Origin: Mycolicibacterium thermoresistibile
GTDB lineage: Bacteria > Actinomycetota > Actinomycetes > Mycobacteriales > Mycobacteriaceae
Reading direction: 5' to 3'
DNA length: 64,000 nucleotides
Assembly: GCF_900187065.1 (NCBI RefSeq)
Contig: NZ_LT906483.1
Location: forward strand, 992,001-1,056,000
Every line of letters begins with the position of its first letter. Position 1 is the first letter of the stretch. The position numbers and the translations under genes are program-made. Of this stretch, positions 6,658 to 61,204 are shown piece after piece. Below the pieces are notes generated by a model that saw nothing but the letters and a program-made list of their open reading frames with translations, was not told the DNA's origin and ran no database searches.

Positions 6658-6718
6658 ACTGTTTCGGCCGATCGCCCGGCTGTGGTGAATCGTTCCCGGA
6701 GCATCGATGAGCAGGGAT

Positions 6719-6747
6719 TTGGCTGCTGCCTCGATGTAAGGCATACT
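6719..6747 (+). promoter_or_regulatory. Promoter of the rpsJ (S10) operon
   Basis: -35 TTGGCT (6719-6724), 17-bp spacer, -10 CATACT (6742-6747), followed after 5 bases by GGTTGCCTTG (6753-6762), where transcription should start. GATTTGG at the -35 and GGTTGYCTKG after the -10 recur at the same spacing before rplN and rpsH. Sigma-A type by sequence; the start site is inferred. Confidence 0.65.
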
Positions 6748-6752
6748 GTTCG

Positions 6753-7098
6753 GGTTGCCTTGAGCCGGGTCCTTCGTCTGGCCGGGTAACCGACCAGCGC
6801 CCGCACGGGCGCACCCGGTCCCACTCTCGATGTGGCGGTTTCCGTCACAAAAAGGGGTGCGGAGCAGGGCCGACACGCCCGACCGCAGGGGCCGGTGAAC
6901 CACAGACAGGAAAACAGCGGCGGCGACAGCCAGCGCGCCGAGTTGACGTGTGAGCGGAGCGCCGGCCCGGCCGGCGAGCCGACGAGAGTTGGCGAGTCGG
7001 CACAGCCGACGAGAAGAAGGCCAGTCGGCACCAGCCGACGCGAGCGCCGGGACGTCACGTCCCAGCACGGACCCGAGCAGGAGTGAGGTAGGAGAAGC
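6753..7098 (+). promoter_or_regulatory. Long 5' leader of the S10 operon with tandem hairpins
   Basis: About 345 nt lie between the inferred start and rpsJ. No convincing coding region is present. Two perfect stem-loops built on the same stem occur near the 3' end: GTCGGC-ACA-GCCGAC (6996-7010) and GTCGGC-ACCA-GCCGAC (7024-7039). Long structured leaders in front of S10 operons are sites of autogenous control in other bacteria (L4 in E. coli). Whether this leader acts that way is not known. Confidence 0.5.
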
Positions 7099-7404
7099 GT
7101 GGCGGGACAGAAGATCCGCATCAGGCTCAAGGCCTACGACCACGAGGCGATCGACGCCTCGGCGCGCAAGATCGTCGAGACGGTCACCCGTACCGGCGCC
7201 AGCGTGGTCGGGCCCGTGCCGCTGCCGACGGAGAAGAACATCTACTGCGTCATCCGGTCCCCGCACAAGTACAAGGATTCGCGGGAGCACTTCGAGATGC
7301 GTACTCACAAGCGGTTGATCGACATCCTCGACCCGACGCCGAAGACCGTTGACGCGTTGATGCGCATCGATCTTCCGGCCAGCGTCGACGTGAACATCCA
7401 GTAG
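7099..7404 (+). CDS. rpsJ: 30S ribosomal protein S10
   Basis: 101-aa S10 (uS10), a 30S head protein that also acts as NusE in transcription antitermination. The start [16 protein letters not shown] and the internal [19 protein letters not shown] segment are diagnostic. GTG 7099 is preceded by a GGTAGGAGAAG ribosome site. It is the first gene of an 11-gene operon, 12 bp before rplC. Length is normal for mycobacteria. Confidence 0.98.
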
Positions 7405-58770: not shown

Positions 58771-58821
58771 TTCCCCTTGATTCCCCGCGAGCCGACTCCC
58801 CGCTCGCCGACCAGCGCCGAT

Positions 58822-58851
58822 TTGGTTCCGCCGCGGCCGCTCACCTAGAAT
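58822..58851 (+). promoter_or_regulatory. Promoter of the rplN operon
   Basis: -35 TTGGTT (58822-58827, within GATTTGG), 18-bp spacer, -10 TAGAAT (58846-58851), then 5 bases and GGTTGCCTTG (58857-58866). It matches the rpsJ and rpsH promoters at both elements. The inferred leader is about 120 nt. Confidence 0.65.
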
Positions 58852-58975
58852 CAGGCGGTTGCCTTGGGCAGACCTCGGCCTGACACGTGCAGGTCCTGCG
58901 TGCCCACCGGTGACACAGACCGCGCACGTCCAGGTCGGAATCTGGCGTGCATACATAACCAGGTCAGGAGATCTA

Positions 58976-59344
58976 GTGATTCAACAGGAATCGCGGGTGA
59001 AGGTCGCCGACAACACGGGCGCCAGGGAGATCCTGTGCATCCGGGTGCTCGGCGGGTCCGGGCGGCGCTACGCCGGCATCGGCGACGTCATCGTCGGGAC
59101 GGTCAAGGAGGCCATGCCCGGCGGCAACGTCAAGCGCGGTGAGATCGTGCGCGCCGTGATCGTGCGCACCGCCAAGGAGCGGCGCCGCCCCGACGGCAGC
59201 TACATCAAGTTCGACGAGAACGCCGCGGTGCTCATCAAGAATGACAACGACCCGCGCGGCACCCGCATCTTCGGGCCGGTCGGCCGCGAGCTGCGGGAGA
59301 AGCGCTTCATGAAGATCGTCTCGCTGGCACCGGAGGTGTTGTAG
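58976..59344 (+). CDS. rplN: 50S ribosomal protein L14
   Basis: 122-aa L14 (uL14), contacting L19 and the 30S at bridge B5/B8. [36 protein letters not shown] is diagnostic. GTG 58976 with CAGGAG at 58965-58970 gives the normal length; the frame is open upstream but that would be non-standard. First gene of the second ribosomal transcription unit. Confidence 0.97.
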
Positions 59345-60417: not shown

Positions 60418-60805
60418 CAGCAACCGGACGTCGCCACCAGGCGTCCACCAGACGTCCATCAGACACTGACGCGCACCCCGCGGGGCATGATCCTCTGCCC
60501 GGCGGGGTGTTCGTCGTCGGCGGCCGGATCGGCCGACCGTCACCGATTTGGTCGGTGAGCACGCGTTTCCTATACTGGGTCGGTTGTCTGGGGTGCTTCG
60601 TGCCCGCAGTCAGCGACCGGTCCGCAGTGCTGGCCCATTGGGTACGGAATTGCGGATGAGCAAGGCCCCTGACCGGTAACTGCCGGTCAGGACGAACTTC
60701 GTAGTAGGCCCACGACACGACATGCCCGGCCATCGGAGCTCTCCGATGGGACAGGCACGCGTGTGTTGCATGGGAACCGCCGCGGGAGAGGTTGACCAAG
60801 CTGTC
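60418..60805 (+). promoter_or_regulatory. Non-coding gap: rpsZ end, rpsH promoter and structured leader
   Basis: No gene is seen in these 388 bp. After rpsZ there is a weak inverted repeat (CACCCCGC 60474-60481 / GCGGGGTG 60502-60509). A promoter lies at 60548-60576. The leader holds two perfect hairpins: CTGACCGG-N6-CCGGTCAG (60669-60690) and CCATCGGAG-CT-CTCCGATGG (60730-60749). The leader may serve feedback control by a ribosomal protein, as S8 does in E. coli; not proven here. Confidence 0.55.
60548..60576 (+). promoter_or_regulatory. Promoter of the rpsH operon
   Basis: -35 TTGGTC (60548-60553, within GATTTGG), 17-bp spacer, -10 TATACT (60571-60576), 5 bases, then GGTTGTCTGG (60582-60591). 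Best consensus of the three ribosomal promoters in this window. It gives rpsH-rplO their own start, with a leader of about 220 nt. Confidence 0.7.
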
Positions 60806-61204
60806 ATGACCATGACGGACCCGATCGCAGACTTCTTGACTCGTCTGCGCAACGCCAACTCGGCGTACCACGACGAAGTGGTGCTGCCGCATTCCAAGCT
60901 GAAGGCCAACATCGCCGAGATCCTCAAGAAAGAGGGTTACATCGCCGACTACCGCACCGAGGACGCTCGGGTGGGCAAGTCGCTGATCATCGAGCTGAAG
61001 TACGGCCCGAACCGGGAGCGCAGTATCGCCGGCCTGCGCCGGGTGTCCAAGCCCGGGCTGCGGGTGTACGCGAAGTCCACCAACCTGCCCCGGGTGCTGG
61101 GCGGCCTGGGCGTGGCGATCATCTCCACGTCGAAGGGTCTGCGCACCGACCGGCAGGCGGCACGAGAAGGCGTGGGCGGGGAAGTCCTCGCCTACGTGTG
61201 GTGA
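60806..61204 (+). CDS. rpsH: 30S ribosomal protein S8
   Basis: 132-aa S8 (uS8), a primary binder of the 16S central domain. [23 protein letters not shown] and the C-terminal [11 protein letters not shown] are diagnostic. ATG 60806 gives the normal length (ATG 60812 is two codons later). First gene of the third ribosomal unit, 15 bp before rplF. Confidence 0.97.

Follow-up and report, generated by a model that had tools for sequence, protein, structure and literature searches.

How do bacteria such as Mycolicibacterium thermoresistibile keep the synthesis of ribosomal RNA (rRNA) and ribosomal proteins (r-proteins) in step? The question is not settled, and it is raised anew by a stretch of 64,000 nucleotides from this actinomycete (NCBI RefSeq assembly GCF_900187065.1, contig NZ_LT906483.1, positions 992,001 to 1,056,000 of the forward strand; hereafter the window). 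The promoters of rpsJ, rplN and rpsH in the window have in common a -35 block, GATTTGG, a -10 hexamer and, after exactly 5 bases, the sequence GGTTGYC, which falls on the predicted start of transcription. The comparisons reported here show that this sequence is a true start-site element, conserved among ribosomal promoters of the class Actinomycetes. It is much more widespread than was noted earlier and is common to rRNA and r-protein promoters.

The start-site block and its register

A preliminary description of the window had claimed that the three promoters share the -35 block and a start-site motif at a fixed step, and the letters, the coordinates and the 5-base gap all hold (Table 1). Exact matches to the longer form GGTTGYCTKG occur three times in the window, all at these promoters. 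GATTTGG alone is not enriched there (4 found, 4.1 expected), and GGTTGYCTKG with at most one mismatch was found 9 times against 14.1 expected. The combined pattern TANNNT-N5-GGTTG matched twice in the 64 kb, at rplN and rpsH, against 0.28 expected, with two or more matches in 3 of 100 shuffles. The rpsJ promoter is missed by this pattern because its -10 hexamer is CATACT.

The register was set by taking the -10 hexamer as -12 to -7, so that the block starts at -1 and the +1 positions are predicted ones. A sequence logo was built with equal weight over 13 gene groups, 12 of them ribosomal and one comprising a 250-residue protein considered below. It displays GATTTGG at -38 to -32, the -10 hexamer and G|GTTGCC at -1 to +6, where the bar separates -1 from +1, in line with the earlier suggestion that the conserved block covers the expected +1 region. 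Information content is 0.82 bits at +6 and only 0.16, the background level, at +7. At -36 to -33 the logo gives T 0.85, T 0.88, T 0.53 and G 0.69. Sites for the logo were picked by a pattern requiring GTTG or GTTC, so that positions +1 to +4 are partly conditioned and +5 and +6 are free; four sites did not fit it (L189, L195, L147 and L204). G makes up 0.99 of the weighted logo at the predicted +1, at sites selected by a pattern that required that G. The gap between the -10 hexamer and the element, for which the pattern allowed 5 or 6 bases, was 5 at all 80 non-rRNA sites and either 5 (n=6) or 6 (n=7) at rRNA sites. A step from the -10 that is nearly fixed is as expected of a start-linked element.

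Distribution in the genome, the order and the class

Conservation was assessed at 80 named loci around rplX, mostly from Mycobacterium with a few from Nocardia, Rhodococcus, Gordonia and Speluncibacter. A strict form of the motif is present upstream of rplN in 78 of the 80 (0.16 expected by shuffling), 74 of which have ATTTG at the -35; of the two exceptions, L055 has only a short stretch of upstream sequence. For rpsH the strict motif accompanies a wide rpsN-rpsH gap: it was found at all 5 loci with a gap of at least 350 bp and at none of the 69 with a shorter one.

Across the 4.95 Mb genome of M. thermoresistibile, TANNNT-N5-GGTTGYC matched 7 sites, against 5 for the pattern read backwards. 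These are rplN, rpsH, rpmB (L003), an rRNA operon (L005), the rpsF-ssb operon (L007) and two non-ribosomal sites, one within a reading frame of 469 codons that looks amidase-like by eye, the other upstream of an unidentified gene. The identities of L003 (L28), L005 (16S) and L007 (rpsF) were confirmed. A promoter model, R1, was then derived from sequence only and trained on 24 promoters, 6 of them from M. thermoresistibile. In this genome, where 150 of 1617 first-look candidates were scored and weak sites may be missing, R1 gave 8 matches at E<=10, and all 8 lie at rRNA or r-protein operons. Matches on which it had not been trained are rplS (CACAAT TGGGC AGTTGTC) and rplJ-rplL (TATTCT CGGGT GGTTCC).

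Further ribosomal genes were located with a 14-protein bait and the 900 bp 5' of each was scanned; rplT and rpsI, both internal to operons, received no score. Among the 12 regions covered, that of rplU carries the element (TACCCT TGAGC AGTTGTC) and that of rpsP a variant, GCTGTC. The element was not found in the 900 bp upstream of the other ten (rpsB, rpsM, rplY, rplK, rpsL, infC, rplM, rpsO, rpsT and rpmF). The clear form is thus present in 8 of the 21 ribosomal promoters examined in this genome (rpsJ, rplN, rpsH, rpsF, rpmB, rplS, rplU and one rRNA operon) and the variant form in 2 (rplJ and rpsP). The element marks only a subset of ribosomal promoters. Relaxing the -10 to ANNNT yielded 96 sites in the genome versus 45 in the reversed control, a result that was not used for any conclusion.

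R1 was also applied to the order, in M. thermoresistibile and 24 relatives (25 genomes) at E<=1. It returned 101 matches, three of which are at contig ends and were not annotated. Upstream of rRNA or r-protein operons there are 78, at rpsJ (16), rplN (15), rpsF (14), rpmB (11), rplS (6), rplJ (4), rplU (4), rplY (2) and rpsH (2), with one each at rpsT, rpmF, rpsM and an rRNA operon. Three more lie upstream of other translation genes, namely aspS, typA and an ABC-F ATPase gene. When the six operon types used in training were removed, r-protein operons still accounted for 19 of the 39 remaining matches. Many genes were identified by inspecting their translations by eye. For ten representatives NCBIfam served as a check; it named 9 of them as stated and gave no family for the 250-residue protein; aspS, typA and the ABC-F ATPase were checked as N-terminal pieces and scored below full-length cut-offs.

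Within the class as a whole, the strict motif is present in 25 of 67 regions upstream of zinc-type rpmB (0.18 expected), from twelve families, and in none of 14 upstream of the zinc-free rpmB paralogues. This count omits two loci cut by contig ends (L262 and L267) and the rpmB genes of M. thermoresistibile, G004 and G011. Upstream of rpsJ it was found in 16 of 29 regions (0.21 expected), from ten families. Three of the 16 come from the family of M. thermoresistibile itself, and in two (L441 and L443) the -10 hexamer starts with neither T nor C; the count omits L401 and L425, where no rpsJ was located, and six loci whose upstream sequence was short. The phylum's other classes were surveyed at rpsJ only, where the strict motif precedes the gene in 0 of 19 cases (0.34 expected). 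Six distant genomes of the class, chosen because their rpmB carries the motif, gave 18 R1 matches at E<=3: rpmB (4), rplY (3), rpsJ (2), a tRNA-Ser gene, pheS, five other or unidentified sites and, without GTTG, one yceD-rpmF and one infC-type operon. The enrichment at ribosomal and translation genes that the preliminary description had set as its check is therefore strongly positive (8/8 in the genome itself, 78/101 in the order, 25/67 for rpmB and 16/29 for rpsJ).

Promoters of rRNA operons belong to the same set. In the order, 20 of 30 rRNA loci were usable, the rest being set aside for too little upstream sequence, a contig end or a wrongly placed 16S start, and in 15 of the 20 a -10 hexamer is followed 5 or 6 bases on by [AG]GTTGC[CT]. 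In the rest of the class, 5 of 14 further rRNA loci carry the element, and one genome with six rRNA operons has it at two of them. In M. thermoresistibile, one rRNA operon carries it and the second (L234) has a TTGAC-type promoter without the GTTGCC start.

Beside these counts stand several separate observations. In a distant member of the class (G078), TATCCT-N5-GGTTGCC lies directly upstream of a tRNA-Ser(GCT) gene (L355), and the element may serve other stable RNAs too. The conserved 250-residue protein, found in L174, L182, L191, L193 and L203, has the promoter TATCCT-N5-GGTTGCCG; its L174 copy has no match in Pfam or NCBIfam, and the protein may be linked to translation. In mycobacteria, conservation at rplN continues past +6 (58857-58878, GGTTGCCTTGGGCAGACCTCGG), unlike at other operons, which may reflect an extra leader element specific to rplN. 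The rpsH leader contains two strongly conserved blocks, 60704-60713 and 60768-60792, which read GTAGGCCCAC and TGGGAACCGC..GAGAGGT. The second also occurs in the short rpsN-rpsH gaps of mycobacteria; the leader is a candidate site for autoregulation by S8 at the RNA level. In the window about 46 kb separates the S10 part of the ribosomal cluster from the spc part (12562-58976); in relative G002 the rpsJ and rplN promoters are about 9 kb apart.

Table 1. Promoter elements and genes at the three ribosomal loci of the window; +1 positions are predicted.
Feature	Position	Strand	Basis or remark
rpsJ promoter -35 block GATTTGG	6716..6722	+	sequence; same position in rpsJ relatives
rpsJ promoter -10 hexamer CATACT	6742..6747	+	sequence; CATACT also at rpsJ in several other class families
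rpsJ start-site block GGTTGCCTTG	6753-6762		5 bases past -10
rpsJ start-site element G|GTTGCC, -1 to +6	6753..6759	+	predicted +1 at 6754; sequence, logo
rpsJ (S10)	7099..7404	+	Pfam PF00338
rplN promoter -35 block GATTTGG	58819..58825	+	sequence; ATTTG in 74/80 rplN relatives
rplN promoter -10 hexamer TAGAAT	58846..58851	+	sequence
rplN start-site block GGTTGCCTTG	58857-58866		5 bases past -10
rplN start-site element G|GTTGCC	58857..58863	+	predicted +1 at 58858; strict motif in 78/80 rplN relatives
rplN (L14)	58976..59344	+	Pfam PF00238
rpsH promoter -35 block GATTTGG	60545..60551	+	sequence
rpsH promoter -10 hexamer TATACT	60571..60576	+	sequence
rpsH start-site block GGTTGTCTGG	60582-60591		5 bases past -10
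rpsH start-site element G|GTTGTC	60582..60588	+	predicted +1 at 60583; in 5/5 relatives with separate rpsH
rpsH (S8)	60806..61204	+	Pfam PF00410

Known promoters and a proposed GTP-dependent initiator

In Bacillus subtilis, rRNA promoters are initiated with GTP and the GTP level signals through the +1 base, the known requirement being the identity of +1 (and +2). The GTP signal at +1 would be alike in the promoters described here, in which six transcribed bases are conserved. Eukaryotes possess a core-promoter element that straddles +1 and belongs mostly to r-protein genes, the TCT initiator or 5' terminal oligopyrimidine (5'TOP) sequence; it differs in polymerase, sequence and domain of life, and serves as an analogy only.

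The -35 half of the promoter is already published. Ruwe et al. (2019) described TTTTG at the -35 of translation genes that are downregulated by (p)ppGpp in Corynebacterium glutamicum and at 12 r-protein promoters of Mycobacterium tuberculosis, with mention of Actinoplanes and Streptomyces (PMC6892785). Gene class and lineage are the same, and GATTTGG is the same -35 feature. Through it each of the three window promoters has the T-rich TTTTG/TTTG sequence at about -37 to -33, in agreement with the logo, and the genes downstream encode S10, L14 and S8. Among the downregulated genes of C. glutamicum, +1 is enriched in G and starts with GTP are over-represented (55.7% versus 33%; PMC6892785). The promoter sections of that paper analyse a 50-bp stretch ahead of the start, with logos cut off at -4, and describe no motif from -10 to +1; the -1 to +6 block and the link to rRNA promoters are features of the present set, and neither was seen in those sections. 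No description of the start-site half was found in the openly licensed literature, subscription papers and supplementary files being outside that search.

Biochemical data on such a start come from M. tuberculosis. At rrnAP3 GTP is the initiating nucleotide, followed by UTP, and GTP is rate-limiting with a Km,app of 16 µM (PMC10602862). GpU and UTP give a GUU product at an M. tuberculosis rRNA promoter, which fits the register of the element (PMC10232725, PMC4288152). At PrrnPCL1 the open complex is unstable, the first two nucleotides shift the balance towards it, pppGpp is inhibitory, and promoter clearance is ten times faster than at PgyrB1 (PMC3436766). These were studied as single rRNA promoters, whereas a start sequence shared with r-protein genes is the feature here. 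The initial transcribed sequence is said in a review to influence escape (PMC12288462), and a study of CarD states that the initial transcribed region is outside its scope (PMC10232725).

We give an even chance to the reading in which G|GTTGYC, at rRNA and many r-protein operons, is recognised by RNA polymerase itself as a GTP-dependent initiator. Transcripts are predicted to begin GUUGYC, and initiation would then depend on the GTP pool, while the other hexamer bases would govern early RNA synthesis and promoter escape. The r-protein promoters would start at the same G and behave like the rRNA promoter, +2 to +6 would act on early RNA synthesis, and the weak -35 would keep the open complex unstable. 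Low GTP or high (p)ppGpp would lower the ribosomal operons together. That +2 and +3 hardly vary and that conservation ends at +6 suggests that the first six nucleotides of synthesis are the tuned step. Such a mechanism is a plausible proposal. Its broader form is more tentative and falls somewhat short of an even chance: a class-wide ribosomal initiator, the start-site hexamer GUUGYC, found chiefly at operons for rRNA and r-proteins, with RNA polymerase decoding it over the first six nucleotides. This would be a counterpart of TCT/5'TOP that ties output to the GTP pool with no dedicated regulator.

Rival readings and biological meaning

Several observations weigh against the initiator. GTP control needs only +1, perhaps with +2, and this leaves +3 to +6 unexplained; the r-protein start sites are predicted positions. 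PrrnPCL1 of Mycobacterium smegmatis clears slowly and with more abortive product (PMC3436766). The element is missing from 11 of the 21 ribosomal promoters examined in M. thermoresistibile, including one of its two rRNA operons, and from rpmB or rpsJ in several of the class's families. At one rplS site (L189) the step from the -10 is 4 bases. Of the 101 matches in the order, 12 fall at other genes, in coding sequence or at unidentified sites, and another 5 lie upstream of the uncharacterised 250-residue protein.

The main rival is a DNA-binding regulator of ribosome genes that recognises the start-site block, perhaps together with GATTTGG, and represses or activates. Both this and GTP-initiated control had been put forward in the preliminary description, and the latter is now the best supported. 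A 7-base block conserved on one functional class of genes over many families does resemble an operator, and conservation beyond +1 is not needed for nucleotide sensing. Yet the block is not palindromic and keeps a nearly fixed step to the -10 (5 bases, or 6 in some rRNA promoters), whereas operators usually vary in place, and polymerase with sigma-A gives GTP dependence at an rRNA promoter with no dedicated regulator (PMC10602862). A regulator is on balance unlikely. It is quite improbable that the conserved feature is the 5' end of the RNA rather than the promoter, with GUUGYC determining how stable the RNA is, how its 5' end is processed or whether it pairs with a second RNA. Only one conserved base would fall outside the predicted transcript, and some leader groups, such as that of rplU, fold well at the 5' end; against this, folding of 42 leaders (first 35 nucleotides, at most four per group) gave no common shape across operons, such as the conserved 5' structure of r-protein leader RNAs, no Rfam family matched in the window, the rpsH leader included, and rRNA operons, which are untranslated, carry the element. 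With conservation ending at +6 and a tRNA-Ser gene (L355) among the carriers, the 5' mRNA element proposed earlier is unlikely as well.

GGTTGYC might also be a favourable start for any strong promoter in these GC-rich genomes, with no special link to the ribosome. Ribosomal promoters are among the strongest, and the matches in the order at other genes and at the 250-residue protein would fit. The reading has little probability, given that only 2 of the 7 exact genome-wide matches are non-ribosomal, that the zinc-free rpmB paralogues lack the element, and that the general preferences of M. smegmatis starts extend only to C at -1 and to G or A at +1 (PMC6448022). Other candidates were rejected: chance, by observed versus expected counts in the window, genome, order and class; leader RNA structure, by the lack of a common fold; and slippage on a run of G, since the run is only two Gs long in many members. 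Specificity for the split S10/spc cluster was ruled out too. The earlier idea that the motif coordinates the parts of this cluster is too narrow, as rRNA, rpmB, rpsF, rplS and rplU carry the element, in many families of the class.

A start-site sequence common to rRNA and r-protein promoters, kept in many families of a large class, offers one mutable handle on how the two syntheses are held in step. Natural controls are at hand in the rRNA operons of M. thermoresistibile with and without the element, and in rpsH, where the element is present if the gene stands apart and absent if it follows closely behind rpsN. If the GTP-dependent initiator is the true reading, the cell likely raises and lowers ribosome production together according to its supply of GTP.
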